A DNA stretch of 64,000 bases, taken from contig NZ_PEIG01000003.1 in the NCBI RefSeq assembly GCF_002749975.1, forward strand, positions 62,001 to 126,000, given 5' to 3'. A program made the translations under genes and the position numbers. Shown here in pieces: positions 1,166 to 63,955 of the stretch. A model generated the notes under the pieces. That model was not told the DNA's origin, ran no database searches, and worked only from the letters and a program-made list of their open reading frames with translations. Every line of letters starts with the position of its first letter. Position 1 is the stretch's first letter. Source of the stretch: Gloeocapsopsis sp. IPPAS B-1203 (GTDB taxonomy: Bacteria; Cyanobacteriota; Cyanobacteriia; Cyanobacteriales; Chroococcidiopsidaceae).

Positions 1166-3400
1166 TTAATAAGAAGTCCGTTCTGCAAGAGTTTTGACGA
1201 CTGTCATTAATTGCACTGGATCGATAGGTTTGGTTAAGTGTGTTTGAAAACCTGCTTGTAGTGCCTTGGCTTGATCTTCTGCACGTGCATAAGCAGTAAT
1301 TGCTGCGGCAGGAATTTGTTTTCCGGACCTAGTTTTTAAGTGCTTGGTTTTTTGGATTAAAGAGTAACCATCTTCTTCTGGCATACCAATATCACTTAAT
1401 AGGATATCTGGTTGAAGTTGCTCAATTAAGTTTATTGCTTCGCTAACTGAACTAACTGCCGTGACATTTGCACCTGCTTGCTCTAGCATGATTTTGAGAA
1501 GTTCGCGAGCATCAGCTTCATCATCAACAACTAGCACTTTTAAACCAGTAATTCCTGATTCTGGAGAAAATTCTGGATCATTCTTAGTTTCAGGGAGGTC
1601 ACTCTCTCGTGGCAAAGGTAATCTCACCATAAAAGTTGCTCCTGTACCGCTTCCTTGACTTGTCGCACTAATTGTTCCACCGTGTAGTTCTACCAAATTA
1701 CGAGCGATCGCTAACCCTAATCCTATGCCACCCTGTTTGCGACTACTACTACTATCTGCCTGACGAAATTGTTCAAAAATATGGGGCAGAAAATCTGCAC
1801 TGATACCTTGCCCGTTATCAATTACATTTAGCTCAATATAGGTGTTCTGTTCTATTAATGATATTTCTACACGTCCACCATGAGGCGTAAATTTAATCGC
1901 ATTTGAGAGCAAATTCCAGATGATTTGTTGCAGGCGATCGGGATCTCCAAAAACTGATTTAGTTGTTGTCAGTACAGAATGAATTTGAATATCTTTTGCT
2001 GCTGCTGCTAGTTGAATCGTATCAATCGCTGCTTCAATGAGATTTGTCAGATGAATAGGGCGACATTGTAAGCGTAACTTGCCACGCATCATGCGGGAAA
2101 TATCAAGAAGATCTTCAATAAGTTGGGTTTGGGCTTGGGCATTTCGCTCTATTGTTTCTAAAGCACGTATGGTAGTTTGTTCATTAAGCGATCGACTGCG
2201 CAGTAACCGCGACCAACCAAGCATTGCATTAAGTGGTGTACGTAACTCGTGAGATACAACCGCGAGAAATTCATCTTTCATGCGACTAGCTTCTTCAGTT
2301 GCCATCCGTACTTGCTGTTCGCGTAGCAGCAGTTTAGCTAACACCTCTTCTACTTCTTTGCGCTGCGTGATATCGCGCTGTACAGAAATCCAATGCGTAT
2401 ACCAGCCAGTATCATCGGCGATCGGCACAATGCTTAGTTCTACCCAAAATTCCGAACCATCCTTGCGGTAGTTGACTAGCTCAAAAACATCAGAATGCCA
2501 TTGTTGTAAAGTTGTCCGAATCCGAGTTAAAGTTTCTTTATCAGTTTTTGGTCCTTGCAGTAACCGCGGCGTTTTCCCTAAAACTTCTTGCAAGCTATAA
2601 CCTGTCATGCGCGTAAAAGCTTCATTGACATAGAGTATACGCGGACCTGGAGATTGAATTGGTTCTGCTTCGGTAATCACGATCGCATCATTAGCATTCA
2701 CGACTACAGATTCTAATAGCCGTAATCTTTCTTCTTGTTGCTTGCGTTGAGTAATATCTTTGACAAAGCAGTAATGACCGCTCACACTATTTTTGTGATT
2801 AATTTTGACAAGCGTAACTTGTTTATAAAAGTGCGATCCATCTTGGCGAATACCTCTTGCTTCACCTTCGGCTTTACCTGTCGCTAACATCTGTTGATAA
2901 GTCGCTGTGAGTTTAGCAACATCTTGAGGATGAACTGTAATCTCCCAGTTTTTACCGATCAAATCTTCTGGCTTGTAGCCTAATAAATGAGCATAGGCAT
3001 AATTTACCGTTAAATATTGTCCTTGGGAGTCTAACCTAGCAATGCATTCGACAGCAGTTTCCAATGCCATCGTGACTTCCCCAAGTGTTGTTTCGGATAC
3101 TTTTACTGATTGACGTTCTAAGTTATTGATAACGCCAAAGACAAACGCTCCTCCTCCCCATAATCCTAGCTGCCAATAGGCTGCATTATCTACCCCATTC
3201 CACTGCAACAGCCCAATAGCTAAACTGATAACAGCAAGCCTTAAAATGAGATGCCAGGTGCTTGTGATTAGGACTATCACAAATAACGCTAGCCCAAAAT
3301 CCAGTTGAGTTGTCGGCTCTAGAAGTAGTTTGCCAAAGACAACAAGTGCGATCGCAAATAAGGTTATGTTATGGCTTAGTCTGGAATAGAAAAAAGTCAT
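1166..3400 (-). CDS. Hybrid sensor histidine kinase (membrane, PAS-PAS-HisKA-HATPase-REC)
   Basis: A 744-residue two-component sensor. The N-terminus has about three to four hydrophobic segments (residues 8-92) and no large periplasmic domain. Two PAS domains with PAC tails follow (roughly 105-225 and 226-350). The kinase core has its phospho-acceptor His384 in SHELRTPL, and N, G1 and G2 boxes of the ATPase (NLLSNAIKF, DNGQGIS, GGIGLGLAI). A C-terminal receiver domain carries Asp670 in SDIGMPEEDG. Phosphate therefore probably passes from His384 to Asp670 and on to an unseen phosphotransfer partner. The signal is unknown; the double PAS suggests redox, light or a small ligand. It stands alone, convergent with fni, with no response regulator gene beside it. 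Confidence 0.9.
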   Translation of the reverse strand: MTFFYSRLSHNITLFAIALVVFGKLLLEPTTQLDFGLALFVIVLITSTWHLILRLAVISLAIGLLQWNGVDNAAYWQLGLWGGGAFVFGVINNLERQSVKVSETTLGEVTMALETAVECIARLDSQGQYLTVNYAYAHLLGYKPEDLIGKNWEITVHPQDVAKLTATYQQMLATGKAEGEARGIRQDGSHFYKQVTLVKINHKNSVSGHYCFVKDITQRKQQEERLRLLESVVVNANDAIVITEAEPIQSPGPRILYVNEAFTRMTGYSLQEVLGKTPRLLQGPKTDKETLTRIRTTLQQWHSDVFELVNYRKDGSEFWVELSIVPIADDTGWYTHWISVQRDITQRKEVEEVLAKLLLREQQVRMATEEASRMKDEFLAVVSHELRTPLNAMLGWSRLLRSRSLNEQTTIRALETIERNAQAQTQLIEDLLDISRMMRGKLRLQCRPIHLTNLIEAAIDTIQLAAAAKDIQIHSVLTTTKSVFGDPDRLQQIIWNLLSNAIKFTPHGGRVEISLIEQNTYIELNVIDNGQGISADFLPHIFEQFRQADSSSSRKQGGIGLGLAIARNLVELHGGTISATSQGSGTGATFMVRLPLPRESDLPETKNDPEFSPESGITGLKVLVVDDEADARELLKIMLEQAGANVTAVSSVSEAINLIEQLQPDILLSDIGMPEEDGYSLIQKTKHLKTRSGKQIPAAAITAYARAEDQAKALQAGFQTHLTKPIDPVQLMTVVKTLAERTSY

Positions 3401-3834
3401 TAGTATTTTGTATAAATCATTTATCCAGGTTTTGCGGCAAGATGCTTAGCTTGCCTTAAGCTTCAACCAATGAAATTTCATTTCCATGATGCGGCTATAC
3501 CCATAGCAGTAAAATTTTTACTCAGTTTGCATAACAGCCGCTTAGTATAAGGACTATTCGCAGTAACTCGTAACGCTACACGATTTGAATAGTCGTAATA
3601 TTTTTCACAGCTTTCATAGCGATCGCCCCCGATTATTAAGAAAATATAAAAAGCGTTAACACATTAACATCGCTGTTTACTGCTGTAAGCTACATCTATC
3701 CTAAGGGTGAATACTGAGAAATGTAAGTTAACTAAATAAAACAAATTAGATATGGGCTAGGCAAAATGCCTGTTCATCGCATTTGATTAAGTAGACAATG
3801 AAATATAAAGGTATTTTTTGTTACTGAAATTCAT
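3401..3834. other. Intergenic region, no gene seen
   Basis: An AT-rich stretch between the 5' end of the kinase gene and the 3' end of pyrR, both on the minus strand. It must hold the kinase promoter. I find no coding frame of useful length, no tRNA-like fold and no dispersed repeat here. Confidence 0.5.
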
Positions 3835-4371
3835 TTAATTACCGATCAACTCCACAGCATCACGCCCATCAAAATCTTGAAGGTACACCCTAACTTGTTC
3901 TTCTTTCGCTGTAGGTAGCTGTTTACCTGTAAAATCTGGATGAATTGGTAACTCGCGATGACCGCGATCAACTAATACTGCTAGCCAAATTGCCGCAGGT
4001 CTACCATAATCGTTAACAGCATTCAAAGCTGCTCGTACAGTACGTCCTTTATAAATCACATCATCAACGAGCAACACAGTTTTTCCTGTTAAATCAAAGG
4101 GAATTTCTGTTTTAGCTGGAGTGCGAACACCAATCTGATCCAAATCGTCGCGGTAAAATGTAATATCCAACGCCCCTGCAGGAATTGTTACACCTTCAAG
4201 TACCTCAATTTGACGCACCAACAGATCTGCTAAAAATGCACCTCTAGTGTAGATACCTAAAATGACGAGTTGTGACAAATCCCGCGATCTTTCTACGACT
4301 TGGGAAGCAAGGCGCGTGACAGTGCGACGGATCTCCTCAGCAGAGAGAATTTCAACAACTTTAGCAGGCAT
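3835..4371 (-). CDS. pyrR: PyrR bifunctional protein: pyrimidine regulator / uracil phosphoribosyltransferase
   Basis: 178 residues, normal length for PyrR. The phosphoribosyltransferase fold is shown by the PRPP-binding loop [13 protein letters not shown] (near residues 93-105) and an N-terminal [11 protein letters not shown] helix typical of PyrR. In Bacillus PyrR attenuates pyr operon transcription and makes UMP from uracil and PRPP. In cyanobacteria pyr genes are usually scattered, and none is adjacent here, so the enzyme role (uracil salvage) is the safer assignment. The ATG start is preceded by a run of GGGGTGA-type repeats rather than a clear ribosome-binding site. Confidence 0.9.
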
Positions 4372-4376
4372 ATGGA

Positions 4377-4408
4377 AGAGGGGTGAGGGGTGAGGGGCGA
4401 GGGGTGAA
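4377..4408. repeat. Short tandem GGGGTGA/GGGGCGA array
   Basis: About four tandem heptamer-like units immediately upstream of the pyrR start codon. The same motif recurs as fragments near 1122-1138 and, on the other strand, near 10280-10310. Simple repeats of this kind are common in intergenic DNA of filamentous and related cyanobacteria. Confidence 0.7.
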
Positions 4409-4455
4409 TGATTAGTGATTAGTGACTAGAAATATTGATCTAAATAGACTTAAGT

Positions 4456-5445
4456 TTAAATGTGCAACAAAAGCAAGGGAATCGCAACACCCAGCCAGAT
4501 CAAAAAGCAATGTCGCGTTAATTGCAATGCTTGGTAAACCTTGACTGAAGTAATCGAATGAATGTTATCTCCAAGTAGAGGCTTGTGTTTGGCAACTCCT
4601 TTGTACCAATTTGTGCCTCCCATTTGTACGCCAAGTACAGCCGCATAAGCGCATTCACTCCAACCTGAATTAGGGCTAGGATCTTGCACCGCATCTCGAC
4701 AGCAAATGCACCAAACATAGCGAGGCTTACCTGATAAAATTGCTAAAGTTAACACGGTCAAACGACACGGTAGCCACGTTAAGGCATCTTCCCAACGAGC
4801 GCTAAACCAACCTAAATAAGTATAGGGTGCTTCGCGATAGCCTACCATTGAATCTAAAGTACTTGCCGCTTTGTAAGCTAAAGCAACCGGAACACTACCA
4901 ATAAATGGGATGAAAGCACCAGCGATCGCATAAAATAAAGGTGCCATTACGCCATCCGTAGCATTTTCACTGACAGTCTCTAAAACTGCCCGCAAAATTT
5001 CAGTCTCAGAAAGATTTGCTGTATCTCTCCCAACATATTTACTAAGGCTAGAACGTGCTTGCGTGATGTTCCCAATGCTGAGTGGCTGTAAGACTTCTTG
5101 TGCAGCTAATCTGAGGCTTCTTGCAGCAAAACAACTTGCCAAGAGAATGCTTTCGACAACAATTCCAAGACTAGGGTGAAGTAGTTTAGTAGTTTGTACA
5201 ATTAACCATCCGACTAAACCACTGCCAGTCACTAATCCAATGCCTAAAATGATACCAGCTAAGCGTTGTGTCCATTGACTATTAAAGTATTTCCAAGCAA
5301 TTTTATTAAAGCGGGCGATCGCCCAACCCATAACGCGCACTGGATGAGGAAAACCCCAAGGATCGGCAATCAGGAAATCTAAAAAAGCAGCGAAAACTAA
5401 AACAACAATTGAGTTAATATTGATTAGAAATTGGCTCAAAAGCAA
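4456..5445 (-). CDS. cobD: Adenosylcobinamide-phosphate synthase CobD/CbiB
   Basis: An integral membrane enzyme of the late corrinoid pathway that joins the aminopropanol (phosphate) arm to adenosylcobyric acid. The 329 residues fit the family. Recognisable segments are FLIADPWGFPHPVRVMGW near the N-terminus, FAARSLRLAA, RDTANLSETEILRA, ENATDGVMAPLFY and YKAASTLDSMVGYR, with about five membrane spans. The start is a TTG at 5445 (another TTG lies two codons in); no ATG upstream is usable. No other cobalamin gene is adjacent and I see no cobalamin riboswitch upstream. Confidence 0.9.
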   Translation of the reverse strand: MLLSQFLININSIVVLVFAAFLDFLIADPWGFPHPVRVMGWAIARFNKIAWKYFNSQWTQRLAGIILGIGLVTGSGLVGWLIVQTTKLLHPSLGIVVESILLASCFAARSLRLAAQEVLQPLSIGNITQARSSLSKYVGRDTANLSETEILRAVLETVSENATDGVMAPLFYAIAGAFIPFIGSVPVALAYKAASTLDSMVGYREAPYTYLGWFSARWEDALTWLPCRLTVLTLAILSGKPRYVWCICCRDAVQDPSPNSGWSECAYAAVLGVQMGGTNWYKGVAKHKPLLGDNIHSITSVKVYQALQLTRHCFLIWLGVAIPLLLLHI

Positions 5446-5590
5446 GGTAATAATCGTAAGTCAAAATTTAATCTTAAGTCAGTCAGTGCAAAGAAATGTC
5501 ACTTACTGGTAGTCATGCGGGCATGAGCAGGCTAGATGCCTACCTTAATATTTCATCTCATTAATCTACTCATAGCTGAATCACCAGCCA

Positions 5591-6034
5591 CTAGACAACA
5601 AAGCTTGTTGCTTCTCCTTGGGCTGCTTGCCAACTGCGAGCATCATAGTAAAGGTCTGCAAGAGTAATAGTATAGAGTGCTTCTTTGAGTTTTTGGTGTA
5701 ATCGCTGCCACAAGGTAAAAGTTACCCAATCTTCTGCTTGAGCTGGTGCTGGAGTATGGTGAGGTAAAGGTTCAATTGTTTCGCCAACAGATTCTAGTAT
5801 TTGTCCTAGAGAAATTTGCGCAGGCGATCGCGCTAATTTGTATCCGCCCTGAACACCGCGAATTGATTCTACTATTCCGGCACGGCGCATTTCAATCAGT
5901 AATTTTTCTAAGTAAGGAGCGGGGATATCTTGGCGTTGAGCGATCGCTTTTACTGATACAGGTCTATTCTTGGGCTGTAAACTCAAATCAAGTAATGCTT
6001 TAACGCTGTAATGCCCGCGAGTTGTTAGCTTCAT
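5591..6034 (-). CDS. Rrf2-family transcriptional regulator
   Basis: 147 residues with the Rrf2 winged-helix start (MKLTTRGHYSVKALLDLS), the dimer helix and the GGYKLAR wing. IscR-like members bind a [2Fe-2S] cluster through three cysteines after the wing; this protein has no cysteine at all, so it is probably cluster-free or senses through a partner or ligand. The region before the gene carries two adjacent inverted repeats (6088-6128), plausible autoregulatory operators. The target is unknown: the neighbours cobD and cyAbrB do not point to a pathway. Assignment to Rrf2 is firm, function is not. Confidence 0.88.
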   Translation of the reverse strand: MKLTTRGHYSVKALLDLSLQPKNRPVSVKAIAQRQDIPAPYLEKLLIEMRRAGIVESIRGVQGGYKLARSPAQISLGQILESVGETIEPLPHHTPAPAQAEDWVTFTLWQRLHQKLKEALYTITLADLYYDARSWQAAQGEATSFVV

Positions 6035-22837: not shown

Positions 22838-25800
22838 ATGAAGCGCAAGCACAAACAGATTTTAAGAGCTTTATCACACGGCAGTGGTCTTTTGCTGTCT
22901 ACTGTGTTACTGTCAATTGGTGCTGTTACTCATGCTGAGGTGACACCTAGTGCTTCTGAATCAAGGTTGGCGCAAGCAAATGCTTTCAAGCGATCGCCTC
23001 AACTAGCTCAAGTACAGCCACAAGCGCCTACTACAGCATTTGGTACGCAGTCGATAACGCTGTTTAATATCTTGCTAGCAACTTTAGTAGTACTATTGGG
23101 TGCGACATTGCTAGCACTATTTTTCTTACGTAAGTCAGTCATTCGTGGTGTCGCTGATATTGTGATGATGCGGCTTAAAGAAGTTGAAGATATCCAAAAT
23201 GAAATTGCTAACGCCGATCGCAAAATTCAGAACATTTTGCAAGATGCTGAAGAAATCTTAGACGAGATTAACCAAGAAGCAGAAGAGCTACAACAAGAAA
23301 TTGCAGCGCAACGTGAAAACTTATCGCAGATAACGCATCTCTCACAAACACAACAACAACAAGTAGTTACAAAACTTGAAAATCAATTCAAAAACTCAGA
23401 ACAATCGCTAAAGAAATTAGCAAGTGAATTTGGAAATGAACTAGTCGGCTTAAAACAACAAACAAAACAGCAGCAAGCTGCTGTTTTACAAAATATTGAA
23501 CAATTAAAAGAAGAATTTTCTCCGCATCTTTTAAAAATTCGAGCAGAAGTTCAAGAAAGAAAAGATGCAGTACTACAAAATTTAGAACAATTTCAAACAG
23601 AATTAGCAAGCCAAATCAATCAAATTCACCAACAAGCTCAACAGCAACGCGATACAATTTTACAAAATATTGAACAACTGACATCTGATTTTACCCCGCA
23701 ACTTGCGACACTACACGTAGAAGTTGAAGCACAAAAGGATAGAATTATTCAAAACTTACAACGCTCAGAAAGTGACTTTGCAGAACAAGTCGAGCAAATT
23801 CAACAAGAGTTAACAACACAACGCAGTAGTGTTTCACAAGAATTTGAGCGAGTACTAACAGTTTTAAGCCCACAAATATCAGAGATGCAAGCTGATATTC
23901 AATCACAAAAAGAAGCAGCATTACAAAACATTAGACAATCAGAAATAGAATTAGCTGCACAATTAGTCCAGATTCAACGGCAAGCGCAGCAAGAATACGA
24001 TGCTACATTAGATAACTTGAAACAGCTAGCACTAGGCTTTGACCCAGATGCAACAGAAATTCAAGCTGATATTCAATCACAAAAAGAAGCAGCATTACAA
24101 AATATTAGGCAATTAGAAATAGAATTAGCTGCACAATTAGTCCAGATTCAACGGCAAGCGCAGCAAGAATACGATGCTACATTAGATAACTTGAAACAGC
24201 TAGCACTAGGCTTTGAACCAGACACAACAGAGATTCAAGCTGATATTCAAGCAGAAAAAGAAGCCATATTACAAAATATACAACAATCTAGAAAAGAGTT
24301 TGCAGTGCAATTAGCACAGTTGCAACAACAAGCGCAAAAACAACGTGATTTATTGTTAAAAAATATAAAACAACTTGCCTCAGAATTAGCTCCACAGTTG
24401 GCAGAATTACAATCTGATGTTCAAAATCAGAAAGATGCAGTCATCCAAAATATTAGACAAACAGAAAGTGAATTTGTCACGCAAGTTTCTGAGTTGCAAG
24501 CAGAAATGCAAACACAAAAAGGTGAAGCTGTTCATCAACTAGAAGATATCAAAACTGAGCTAGAAGAACGAATTACAGCTTTGCAAGCCGAAGTACAAAA
24601 ACAACAATCTACTTTACAAGAAAGCATACAACAGCTAGAAGCTAATTTAACACCACATCTTGCAGAAATTCAAACTGAAGTTATAGCAAGACTGCAACAA
24701 CAAAAAGATGTCACATTAGAAAATTTACAACAGATTCAAATAGAAGTCACCACACAGATTCAAGAGTTTCAATCGCAAACTCAAACGCAACTAGAACAAG
24801 AGATTCAAAACTTGCGATCGCAAGTCGCAGAATTTGCCACTCAACTTAGCAATTCTCGACTAGGAATTCAATCGCAACAAGACACTACAATTGAAAATCT
24901 AGAAAAATTAGCCTCTGAGTGTTCAAATCAACTGACAGCATTGCAGTCAGAAATTACAAATCGTAAGGAAGTAACGCTAGAAAATCTAGAGAAACTAGAA
25001 AACAGACTAGAAACAGAACTAAATGAGGTAAAATCAGATGCTCAAGCCCGAAAAGAACAAATTCTCAAGCAAATAGCCGAAATTACACCAGCAACAATTG
25101 CTCAAGAAGCATTCTCTGAAGTATCCCAACAACTTCAAGCCTTATCCGAACAAATACAACTGTTGAAATCAAACTATCCACAGTTATTCATGCGTCCGGA
25201 TGATTATATCAATCAGGGAAATGCATTATTTTCTGCAGGACATTATCAAGATGCGATCGCATCCTACGAACAGGCGTTAGAAATTCAACCGAATAATCCT
25301 GATGTATGCTATCAGCAAGGCTTAGCATTATGGGAATTAAACCAATACGAGTCAGCAATTGCTGCATTTGATAAAGTACTGGAAATTAAACCAGAAGATG
25401 TCGCAAGTTGGTATCAACGTGGTATCCTTTTGAAAGAACTAAAACGCTACGAAGGTGCATTTGCAGCTTTTAGCCAGGTGATTCAAATTCAACCAGATCA
25501 TAGCGATGCTTGGTTTAATCGCGGTATTGTTTTAGGAAGACTAAAACGCTATAAAGATGCGATCGCATCCTATGATAAAGCCATTGAACTCAATCCTAAT
25601 CATCATCTCGCGTGGGTAGATCGCGGCGTAGCATTAGGCAAATTACAAAACCATGAAGAAGCTTTTCAATCGTTTGATCGCGCAGTACAAGTCAAACCAG
25701 ATGATGCTGTAGCTTGGATGAATCGAGGTATGGCGTTAGAAGTTCTAGAAAGAATAGAAGATGCGATCGCATCGTACGATAAAGCGATTGAACTCAATCC

Positions 25801-26089
25801 TGACTACTATAAAGCTTGGAACGCTAAAGGATATTTACTCATTCAATTAGAACGCGATCCGGAAGCCTTAGAAAGCTTTGATCGAGCTTTACAGATTCAA
25901 CCAGATTATCCTAATGCTTACTACAATAAAGCAATTTGCTACACCTTCCAAGGAGACGTCAAATTAGCACTAGAGAACTTACAAAAGGCGATTGAACTAA
26001 ATCCGAAGTATCGCGCTGAAGCTAGTACTGATCCTGATTTTGAGAGTATTGCTAATAATCGACGTTTTCGCCAGTTAGTAGAAGATTAG
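22838..26089 (+). CDS. Membrane-anchored 29-residue-repeat coiled-coil protein with C-terminal TPRs
   Basis: 1083 residues. Order: signal-like helix (about 15-33), Pro/Gln linker, membrane helix (72-97), a short coiled coil, then about 15 tandem units of 29 residues (213-651) with consensus (K/R)DAxLQNIxQ...L, then more coiled coil, and about eight tetratricopeptide repeats (about 787-1050, e.g. AIASYDKAIELNP). Units 6-7 and 8-9 are almost identical because of a 174-bp tandem duplication. The rod likely projects from the membrane and the TPR end docks other proteins. It lies 68 bp after queA. I recognise no named family; a scaffold or secretion/polar-organising role is only inference. Confidence 0.85.
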   Translation: MKRKHKQILRALSHGSGLLLSTVLLSIGAVTHAEVTPSASESRLAQANAFKRSPQLAQVQPQAPTTAFGTQSITLFNILLATLVVLLGATLLALFFLRKSVIRGVADIVMMRLKEVEDIQNEIANADRKIQNILQDAEEILDEINQEAEELQQEIAAQRENLSQITHLSQTQQQQVVTKLENQFKNSEQSLKKLASEFGNELVGLKQQTKQQQAAVLQNIEQLKEEFSPHLLKIRAEVQERKDAVLQNLEQFQTELASQINQIHQQAQQQRDTILQNIEQLTSDFTPQLATLHVEVEAQKDRIIQNLQRSESDFAEQVEQIQQELTTQRSSVSQEFERVLTVLSPQISEMQADIQSQKEAALQNIRQSEIELAAQLVQIQRQAQQEYDATLDNLKQLALGFDPDATEIQADIQSQKEAALQNIRQLEIELAAQLVQIQRQAQQEYDATLDNLKQLALGFEPDTTEIQADIQAEKEAILQNIQQSRKEFAVQLAQLQQQAQKQRDLLLKNIKQLASELAPQLAELQSDVQNQKDAVIQNIRQTESEFVTQVSELQAEMQTQKGEAVHQLEDIKTELEERITALQAEVQKQQSTLQESIQQLEANLTPHLAEIQTEVIARLQQQKDVTLENLQQIQIEVTTQIQEFQSQTQTQLEQEIQNLRSQVAEFATQLSNSRLGIQSQQDTTIENLEKLASECSNQLTALQSEITNRKEVTLENLEKLENRLETELNEVKSDAQARKEQILKQIAEITPATIAQEAFSEVSQQLQALSEQIQLLKSNYPQLFMRPDDYINQGNALFSAGHYQDAIASYEQALEIQPNNPDVCYQQGLALWELNQYESAIAAFDKVLEIKPEDVASWYQRGILLKELKRYEGAFAAFSQVIQIQPDHSDAWFNRGIVLGRLKRYKDAIASYDKAIELNPNHHLAWVDRGVALGKLQNHEEAFQSFDRAVQVKPDDAVAWMNRGMALEVLERIEDAIASYDKAIELNPDYYKAWNAKGYLLIQLERDPEALESFDRALQIQPDYPNAYYNKAICYTFQGDVKLALENLQKAIELNPKYRAEASTDPDFESIANNRRFRQLVED
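23888..24235 (+). repeat. 174-bp tandem duplication inside the coiled-coil gene
   Basis: Two nearly identical copies, 23888-24061 and 24062-24235, each encoding two 29-residue coiled-coil units. A third, more diverged unit starts at 24236. The low divergence shows a recent in-frame expansion. Confidence 0.9.
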
Positions 26090-47402: not shown

Positions 47403-48140
47403 ATGTCACAATCAATAGCAGCAGATTTCTTTTCCCCAGAAGAACAAGCTGAGTGGATAGAAGAACCTGATATTAGCCATTTGGTGACAGAAGACGATAC
47501 TCCTGTGGACAACCTGCTTGCAGAAAAACAGCAACGACTGTTGACAAGTTGTTTATATAGTTCGTGGAAACCAGGTGTTCCTTTTTTAGCTACCGCAAAT
47601 GTTGGTTTGTTCTATACAGTTAATCAACCAGCCATAGTACCTGATGTCTTACTTAGCTTAGATGTAGAGGTTCCCCAAGATTGGCAACAAAAGAAGAACC
47701 GTTCTTACTTTACTTGGATAATTGGTAAGCCACCAGAAGTTGTGATTGAAATTGTCTCAAATAATGTGGGCAACGAACTGGGGAGTAAAATGAAAGACTA
47801 TGCCCGTATTGGTGTGGCTTACTACGTTGTTTACGATCCTTTGCCGCAATTAGGCGATCGCTTATTACGAGTTCATGAGTTAAGAGGTACAAGTTACACT
47901 CCTTTGGAAACAACTTGGATGGAACCAGTGGGTTTGGGATTAACGCTATGGGATGGAATCTTTGAAGGAAAACAAGATACTTGGTTGCGTTGGTGCGATC
48001 GCGATGATAGTTTGATTGCCACAGGTGATGAACGTGCTGAAACTGAACGTCAACGTGCCGAAACTGAACGCCAACGTGCGGAACGCTTAGCAGAAATATT
48101 GCGTTCTCAAGGTATCGAGCCTAACGAATTGCTGAGTTAA
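47403..48140 (+). CDS. Uma2 (DUF820) family protein with C-terminal heptads
   Basis: 245 residues. Core motifs VPDVLLSLDVE, PPEVVIEIVS, GVAYYVVYDPL and the C-terminal RAETERQRAETERQRAERLAE heptads, a short coiled coil that ends SQGIEPNELL as in many cyanobacterial Uma2 proteins. The heptads probably mediate dimerisation. Shares this tail design with the Uma2 gene at 56207-56989. Confidence 0.88.
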   Translation: MSQSIAADFFSPEEQAEWIEEPDISHLVTEDDTPVDNLLAEKQQRLLTSCLYSSWKPGVPFLATANVGLFYTVNQPAIVPDVLLSLDVEVPQDWQQKKNRSYFTWIIGKPPEVVIEIVSNNVGNELGSKMKDYARIGVAYYVVYDPLPQLGDRLLRVHELRGTSYTPLETTWMEPVGLGLTLWDGIFEGKQDTWLRWCDRDDSLIATGDERAETERQRAETERQRAERLAEILRSQGIEPNELLS

Positions 48141-56206: not shown

Positions 56207-56989
56207 TCAGTTTAATGCGTCTGGATCAATACCTAATTCCCGCAGTTTAGCTGCCAAAAGTTCGGCACGCTGTCGTTCTTGTTCAGCACGCTGTCGTTCT
56301 TGTTCAGCACGCTGTCGTTCTTGTTCGGCGCGTTGTCGTTCTTGTTCGGCTTGTTCAGCACTCCACAACAGAAGATTACCTTCAACATCCCACCAGCGCA
56401 GCCAATTGGTCGTTTGGCGCAATCGCTCGCCGTACCAAATTCCTAAAAATAACTCTAACTGCGGAATCCAATAACGTCCGTTGGCATCAGGTCTGTGTAA
56501 AACGTACTTTTCTTCTTCTAGATATCGTACCTCTAGATTTCGTTCGTAAGGGTCATAAGTAACATAAGTAGGCACTTGCAAAATTTGTTCGTAGAAATAA
56601 AGCTTGCCATAGGGTGGAGTCGAGCGTATCGACAACTCACCGCCATCTTCTTGTGAGAGGAACTCCATGACTAAAGCTACCGAATCGCCTTCAAGATGTG
56701 GTGTATAGCTGCGACGAATGACTTCTGACGGTACAGGTTGAACGTGAGCCACATAAAACCAATCAGGTGCTTTCACGACAATCTTTTTATTTACCGTAGC
56801 AACTAAACCAAAGTTCGAGCCGATGAGCATATCCGGTTGAATACGTTCTGCGGCTCCTAATGCATCAGTAAGCGCAGCAGCAAGGGGCGGTTGTTGAATG
56901 TTCTCCACAGGATCGTCAGGTAATATGAAGTCATCTGGAAGATGTTCCCAGCTGATTGTCAGTTTTTTTGTTGGCTTTTGCAGAATCAT
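56207..56989 (-). CDS. Uma2 (DUF820) family protein with long heptad tail
   Basis: 260 residues. PD-(D/E)xK-like core (PDWFYVAHVQPVPSEV, SVALVMEFLS, YVTYDPYERNLEV) then a C-terminal array of four to five EQERQRA heptads and an ELGIDPDALN end that mirrors the other heptad-tailed Uma2 gene in the window. The heptads are coded by exact 21-bp tandem repeats and may vary in number between strains. Confidence 0.88.
   Translation of the reverse strand: MILQKPTKKLTISWEHLPDDFILPDDPVENIQQPPLAAALTDALGAAERIQPDMLIGSNFGLVATVNKKIVVKAPDWFYVAHVQPVPSEVIRRSYTPHLEGDSVALVMEFLSQEDGGELSIRSTPPYGKLYFYEQILQVPTYVTYDPYERNLEVRYLEEEKYVLHRPDANGRYWIPQLELFLGIWYGERLRQTTNWLRWWDVEGNLLLWSAEQAEQERQRAEQERQRAEQERQRAEQERQRAELLAAKLRELGIDPDALN
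56260..56343. repeat. 21-bp tandem repeat (four units) inside the Uma2 gene
   Basis: Four units with few changes (GTTCAGCACGCTGTCGTTCTT on the plus strand is 21 bp; arms vary at two bases). Each codes one EQERQRA heptad, so this is a protein repeat, not a CRISPR. Confidence 0.9.
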
Positions 56990-63824: not shown

Positions 63825-63955
63825 TACTAGGGTAGTAGGGTAGGCGGGTAAGAGGGAAAACTATCATTTCGTCTCTCCTACTCTCCCACACTCCTACTCT
63901 CTTACTCTCCCACTCGCCAACTCTACAACGCTCCCACACTCCTACTCTCTCTCAC
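63825..63955. repeat. Mirrored purine/pyrimidine repeat R3, copy 2
   Basis: GGGTAGTAGGGTAGGCGGG then AAGAGGG on the left, and CTCCTACTCTCCCACACTCC-type units on the right. Arms can pair over 20-30 bases with interruptions. Upstream of hslO. Confidence 0.75.

Follow-up and report, generated by a model that had tools for sequence, protein, structure and literature searches.

What is a protein built in steps of exactly 29 residues counting? The question is raised by an ORF in a 64,000-nt stretch of Gloeocapsopsis sp. IPPAS B-1203 DNA (hereafter the window, to which all positions refer unless another locus is named). An earlier note, made from the letters of this DNA, described a 29-residue coiled-coil repeat joined to a TPR domain behind a membrane anchor, and proposed that its periodicity could serve a ruler-like or docking rod. 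We consider here how the array is built, whether its register holds in homologues, what the number 29 means for a helix, and which function best suits a rod of this kind.

Architecture of the protein

The gene lies at 22838-26089 (+) and encodes 1083 aa (Table 1). The array begins where it had been placed, residue 213 falling at 23474, and the at least 13 units of exactly 29 residues, with one of 33, were recovered as described. Its end, previously set at 24790, moves out to 25051 through the four additional 29-mers that follow the longer unit. The eight TPRs, which are helix-turn-helix repeats of 34 residues, appear both as eight stretches above the cut-off of Pfam TPR_1 and as eight helix pairs in the structural model. 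The single membrane helix is likewise present, preceded by a signal-like N-terminus that had gone unmentioned.

Table 1. Parts of the repeat protein and their positions in the window
Feature	Residues	Position	Strand	Basis
Signal-peptide-like N-terminus (KRKHK, hydrophobic core, T-H-A)	1-34	22838..22939	+	Sequence, alignment
Short tail	35-75	22940..23062	+	Sequence, alignment; model confidence low
Single transmembrane helix, then Arg98	about 76-97	23063..23128	+	Conserved hydrophobic stretch and invariant Arg
Head coil, continuous with membrane helix	98-212	23129..23473	+	Alignment; unbroken model helix 70-327
13 successive 29-residue units, exact	213-589	23474..24604	+	Rows of 29; period 3.625
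Two adjacent 174-bp double units	358-415 and 416-473	23909..24256	+	94.8% identical DNA
One 33-residue unit (29-mer plus about one helical turn)	590-622	24605..24703	+	Rows of 29
Four further exact 29-residue units	623-738	24704..25051	+	Rows of 29
Conserved rod-TPR linker, KEQIL...P...NYPQLFMRPDDY	739-786	25052..25195	+	Alignment
Eight TPRs and C-terminal end	787-1083	25196..26086	+	Pfam TPR_1, AlphaFold2, structure comparison

In 80 of the 83 family members tested (L135 omitted), a hydrophobic N-terminal segment is preceded by K/R and followed by an A-x-A-like site. Across the same 83 proteins, K/R are commoner on the C-terminal side of the membrane helix in 78, and equal on its two sides in five. 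Under the positive-inside rule this excess would place the rod in the cytoplasm, and we infer from the sequences a membrane protein with a cytoplasmic C-terminus and rod, whose short tail (35-75) would lie outside the cytoplasm.

A unit of eight turns at the natural pitch of the helix

When residues 111-775 were compared with themselves at lags of 3 to 129, the four highest identities of the whole scan were at 58 (0.328), 116 (0.262), 87 (0.239) and 29 (0.236). As identity at lag 58 exceeds that at lag 29, the larger repeat is a 58-residue pair; in the DNA, a 174-bp period runs over 23880-24336 (2.6 copies, 88% matches). Within the unit the strong core positions are 5, 8, 11, 15, 19, 22 and 26, with a K/R layer at position 1, a spacing that fits the 7+11+11 mixture of heptads and hendecads into which the earlier note had divided the number 29. 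Pro stands at unit position 17 in seven of the 18 units of the window protein.

By Fourier analysis the hydrophobic period of the rod is 3.6275 (power 69.0; the maximum of 200 shuffles, on a coarser grid, was 9.3), and 3.625 (power 72.6) for a slightly different stretch of the same rod. At 3.625, that is 29/8, 29 residues make exactly eight turns. In the account given in PMC4786415, an undistorted straight helix has about 3.63 residues per turn, heptads (3.5) twist to the left and hendecads (3.67) slightly to the right. The period of the rod, 3.625, is the natural pitch of an undistorted α-helix. Three other coil-forming ORFs at the same loci, all that passed the filter and thus a weak control, gave periods of 3.40-3.455.

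Other tandem repeats lie elsewhere in the window. Repeats of 21 bp at 48031-48083 and 56260-56350 encode the heptad-like tails (ERQRAET, EQERQRA) that end two proteins, both of which we take to be Uma2-like, and a CT-rich 8/24-bp repeat is found near the window end (63873-63949).

Relatives and their distribution

The set of rod proteins comprises 84 members, the window protein included, defined by a head-profile score above 55 bits, a region longer than 250 aa and a Fourier power above 11. They come from 42 of 80 loci from named records, 25 of the 34 loci L081-L114, 16 of the 20 loci L031-L050, and the window. L147, at the limit (power 11.0, period 3.6225), was excluded, as were 11 further ORFs of the listing that have no such rod, the listing itself being confined to ORFs of at least 30 bits. 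Since the 84 share kinship and are non-independent, figures are also given for clusters at 70% TPR identity. Among the carriers are Symplocastrum, Moorena, Microseira, Kamptonema, Fischerella PCC 7414 and Chlorogloeopsis PCC 6912, as well as Nostoc, Anabaena, Dolichospermum, Pleurocapsa, Leptolyngbya and Acaryochloris. In a draw of 292 genomes across the cyanobacterial phylum, the head profile matched 52 with an E value of 1e-5 or lower, and 39 of them at 77 bits or more, with a single such match apiece; the gene itself was inspected in 27 genomes of this last group. At E up to 1e-8, a cut-off under which weaker copies may exist, the profile of the 58-residue unit matched 16 of 30 near genomes, and all the listed places lie in one orthologous ORF.

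Short relatives (L102, L104, L107) are matched by both the head and the linker/TPR profiles and have a membrane helix, a short coil and TPRs; they differ from the rod family in being without the 29-residue rod. In an unrooted tree of the head and TPR parts, one branch with support 96/98 splits 30 rod-bearing from nine short rows. The position of two rows in this tree, L084 (contig end) and L087 (split gene), is to be ignored, as both are truncated and on a long branch.

Several individual loci are worth recording. Sister proteins with a membrane helix, a short coil and TPRs, and without a long rod, occur at L102, L104, L106, L107 and L110, two such short genes standing side by side at L104 and L107. 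In genome G242 the gene at L087:2809-5654 (-) is split inside the rod into two ORFs of 520 and 406 aa, through either decay or sequencing error. The TPR protein encoded at L050:7074-9113 (+) has a membrane segment at its N-terminus and, ahead of its TPRs, acidic SLNSILDSEEEEDEDD-type repeats that may form a disordered spacer in place of a coil.

A comparison of the neighbourhoods of the family loci found no conserved gene neighbours beyond the closest genera. The window's own neighbours, among them the gene just upstream, which is presumably queA-like, are kept at five loci only (its own genus and g3). Over all loci, the commonest neighbour clusters are found at 15, 14 and 8 loci, their orientations being mixed; the second-commonest, by our reading an oxidoreductase-like gene, is upstream and on the opposite strand in 12 cases.

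Helical phase is nearly always kept where the number 29 is not

A unit model built from the window alone found 858 units in 81 relatives (the 84 minus the window, L031 and L032), compared with 17.8 per shuffled set. Of 774 spacings listed, 609 are exactly 29, and among the other 165, 159 deviate by no more than 0.2 turn from an integral number of turns (chance alone would give about 40%), with 33, 58, 26, 62, 47, 22, 54, 51 and others as phase-preserving values. The register, on which the earlier note had made its reading depend, therefore holds in homologues. A period of 3.626 ± 0.008 was measured across the 84 proteins (79 within 3.61-3.64), and of 3.627 ± 0.007 across 29 clusters (28 within the same range); four members of one genus-level group, which alternate 29 and 26, have a period of 3.6525. 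A strict 29 thus describes most spacings and not every lineage, some of which use 18 or 51 or this alternation, and on the sequences it seems that the conserved feature is a straight unbroken seam rather than the number 29.

Two loci illustrate the other unit lengths. At L100 (ORF 3347-5812 -), residues about 284-355 form a run of 18-residue units, phase-preserving at 18/5 = 3.6, and at L111 (ORF 2916-5444 +) 51-residue units have been amplified from residue about 407, again preserving phase.

Structural models

AlphaFold2 predicted residues 66-328, from 57 of the 82 available sequences, as an unbroken helix over 70-327 (258 residues) with a mean pLDDT of 85; the five models scored 85.0, 83.6, 65.4, 62.5 and 53.1. 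This unbroken helix suggests that the rod continues the membrane helix without interruption, and together with the order of the parts it bears out a rod that stands behind a membrane anchor and ends in TPRs. A full-length monomer model from 17 sequences was confident for the TPRs only (pLDDT mostly over 85), the rod scoring about 37-60, with helix breaks that include 399-407 and 458-464 at Pro sites. Structure comparison, which covered nearly only residues 775-1083, matched the TPR domain to the consensus TPR protein 9qhb (Z 30.1, rmsd 2.1, 272 residues) and to the TPR domain of O-GlcNAc transferase, 6eou (Z 28.9, rmsd 2.6, 286 residues).

Comparison with known coils, tails and amphipathic helices

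The earlier note knew of no described family with this plan. Indeed, Pfam and NCBIfam gave TPR and coil matches, PHROGs nothing for the residues searched (1-737), and no published description of this rod-TPR family was found in searches of the openly licensed PMC literature, which does not imply absence elsewhere. The 23 NCBIfam families are mainly of TPR type, NF047558 (TPR end-of-group) and TIGR02552 (LcrH_SycD) being over cut-off, with weak coil matches such as SMC. The repeat class, on the other hand, is not new: PMC8435291 describes SF-assemblin, a eukaryotic rootlet protein, as a 29-residue coil repeat of four heptads plus a skip residue that forms rigid protofilaments. Like SF-assemblin and beta-giardin, the rod family has consecutive 29-residue coil units; here the core spacings fit 11+11+7 and the K/R polar layer hides the place of any skip, while the membrane helix and TPRs are absent from the SF-assemblin description in that source.

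The SF-assemblin family PF06705 does match above its cut-off of 30.6 (42.2 for the whole protein, 44.8 for the rod). However, both of the two shuffles tested (of three made) in which residues were exchanged within the 29 unit columns kept the match (38.1 and 32.3), whereas no family was listed after one full shuffle or one column permutation; of three homologous rods, L115 passes (38.9), L134 reaches 20.4 and L097 has none listed at E up to 0.01. As the match survives column shuffling, it reflects the shared 29-residue pattern and composition and not shown descent. Despite this periodicity-driven match, the rod may still work like SF-assemblin. Rods would then bundle sideways in staggers of 29 or 58 residues, cross-linked by their TPRs, as a membrane-tethered cytoskeletal filament. 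Near-identical units would allow such staggered packing, and All4981 of Anabaena PCC 7120, a cyanobacterial TPR protein, forms filaments (PMC7002697). Yet a charge stagger analysis of the 29-residue pattern gave no clear minimum or strongly preferred stagger, and rods of variable length would be unexpected under a fixed striation, which leaves a filament, in our judgement, unlikely. All4981 and other cyanobacterial TPR/coil proteins have been proposed as structural, as we do here (PMC7002697, PMC7766704); compared by description alone, All4981 is about 650 aa, its coil prediction is ascribed to its TPRs, and the description in PMC7002697 includes no 29-residue rod.

Long bacterial rods are also known from FilP, Scy and other hendecad-rich coils, hendecads having very little supercoil (PMC9858780). 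FilP and Scy have a DivIVA-like N-terminus, hendecads and an Ala-rich core; in contrast, the rod family has 29-residue units, an L/I/F core, a membrane helix and TPRs. The 25 Pfam families listed for the protein, down to E 0.82, include no DivIVA domain, and the N-terminus is a signal-like peptide and membrane helix. By analogy with PMC9858780, a coil with an L/I/F core and near-hendecad packing may prefer to assemble from more than two strands.

Could the rod instead relay a signal, a membrane event being passed along it to cytosolic partners held on the TPRs, as in a ZorA stalk? Three PADLOC ZorA models match, all in the coil, with a best E of 4.7e-08, and the predicted helix would offer an unbroken path from membrane to rod; ZorA of the Zorya system is, like the rod protein, membrane-bound with a long cytosolic tail (PMC12409362). 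The best match is, however, limited to profile positions 309-566 of 692. The MotA-like motor domain described for ZorA is not seen in the rod protein, the TPRs belong to the rod protein, and no MotA/ExbB/TolQ membrane domain occurs among the same 25 Pfam families (to E 0.82). As the protein has a single membrane helix and a sensor domain was not seen, we consider a signal relay improbable.

A giant amphipathic helix lying flat on the membrane in the manner of an apolipoprotein would also be expected to show straight pitch. The apolipoprotein family PF01442 stays below its cut-off of 90 (31.8 for the whole protein, 27.8 for the rod, 61.3 for L134), a PDB sequence search with the rod alone returned 14 sequences at E up to 1, among them weak ApoA-I matches (best E 0.018), and a K/R position borders the hydrophobic stripe. 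This stripe, however, spans ~125 degrees, is rich in L/I/F with polar positions inside, and has strongly acidic positions on both sides; net charge is negative in all 28 rods measured (-3.1 to -9.7 per 100 residues). Negative rods with an L/I/F stripe fit a coil better than lipid binding, and a membrane-lying helix is therefore very improbable.

Rod length changes mainly in whole units

We measured the membrane-to-linker distance, head coil included, between the membrane-exit Arg and the linker Lys. Both anchors are clean in 64 of the 84 proteins (20 are without; the accepted anchor of L150 is doubtful). In 25 of the 64 the distance is 3 modulo 29 (1 in 29 expected), at 11 lengths: 13, 14, 16, 17, 18, 19, 20, 21, 22, 24 or 25 x 29 residues. 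The remaining 39 are spread over twelve other remainder classes, of which the largest has eight members. Of the 24 cluster representatives, 12 belong to the main class and 21 keep helical phase within 0.2 turn. Distances range from 318 to 728 residues, about 10 to 25 times 29. At the α-helical rise of 0.149 nm per residue, the rod would measure about 95 nm in the window protein and about 47-108 nm across the family.

Repeat number varies within the window's own genus, where the distances are 641, 641 and 699 residues, 58 apart between species, and in the longest rod one double unit is present three times, its copies being 86-97% identical at the DNA level. In G002, double units 358 and 416 match each other at 96.6%, close to the value within the window (Table 1); between the window and G002 they are 78.7-81.0% identical, other units there being 80-88%, and between the window and G001 89.7-96.0%. 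That the pair is more alike within than between the window and G002 suggests homogenisation (concerted evolution) or repeated duplication, either of which argues against a conserved ruler length. From these sequences, rod length appears to change between species mostly by whole units. The ruler proposed by the earlier note, with length itself as the functional output, could draw on the common remainder modulo 29, yet it is weakened by length differences within one genus and across the family and by double units reworked species by species, and we regard it as very improbable.

Discussion

Architecture, periodicity, helical phase and length steps come directly from the computation, and that this is a membrane-anchored protein with a straight rod is the part of our reading in which we have high confidence. 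The register of the units, the period of 3.626, the distances modulo 29, the continuous 258-residue helix and the confident TPR fold all count in favour of our reading as a whole. With more moderate confidence, we posit that the protein is a membrane-anchored, straight and putatively oligomeric stalk with a TPR docking domain presented at its end, some 47-108 nm away from the membrane. The signal-like peptide, short outside tail and single membrane helix would fix the protein in the membrane, and the cytoplasmic part would be a long, essentially straight and probably oligomeric coiled-coil stalk, made of 29-residue units of eight turns each, and ending in the eight-repeat TPR domain. As 29 residues make eight turns at natural pitch, the addition or removal of units, or of single turns, would leave the rod untwisted and its hydrophobic seam intact.

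A role as spaced docking scaffold or tether seems to us somewhat favoured. As a spacer or tether, the stalk could keep the TPR face about 95 nm from the membrane in this species, and this face could catch or organise partner proteins; both oligomerisation of the stalk and the docking role of the TPRs are putative. Several points weigh against this. Pro in seven of 18 window units could kink or break the rod, the full-length model is a monomer whose rod has low confidence and breaks in its helix, and three of the five models of residues 66-328 reach only 65.4-53.1. In addition, the analysis gave no partner, operon or localisation clue, with neighbours unconserved beyond the closest genera.

Perhaps, and we offer this as a tentative and rather doubtful extension, these proteins form a new cyanobacterial family of zero-supercoil rods, in which selection has tuned the seam to the undistorted pitch (3.625), so that length changes in quantal steps (29 or 58; 18, 51 or 55 in certain lineages) while the TPR head keeps nearly the same rotation relative to the membrane. 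Such a rod would be a modular, membrane-bridging tether, a golgin-like bacterial counterpart. If so, it would reach from a membrane to some other structure and might, for instance, join a thylakoid to the plasma membrane or to a second thylakoid.

Beyond this, the family would provide an unusually clean natural coil tuned to straight-helix pitch over roughly 50-100 nm, its length steps mostly whole units, and a ready-made set of natural rods with defined lengths that may be of use to protein design. For the biology of the cyanobacteria that carry it, the rod protein stands as a candidate for spacing or connecting membranes and complexes within the cell.
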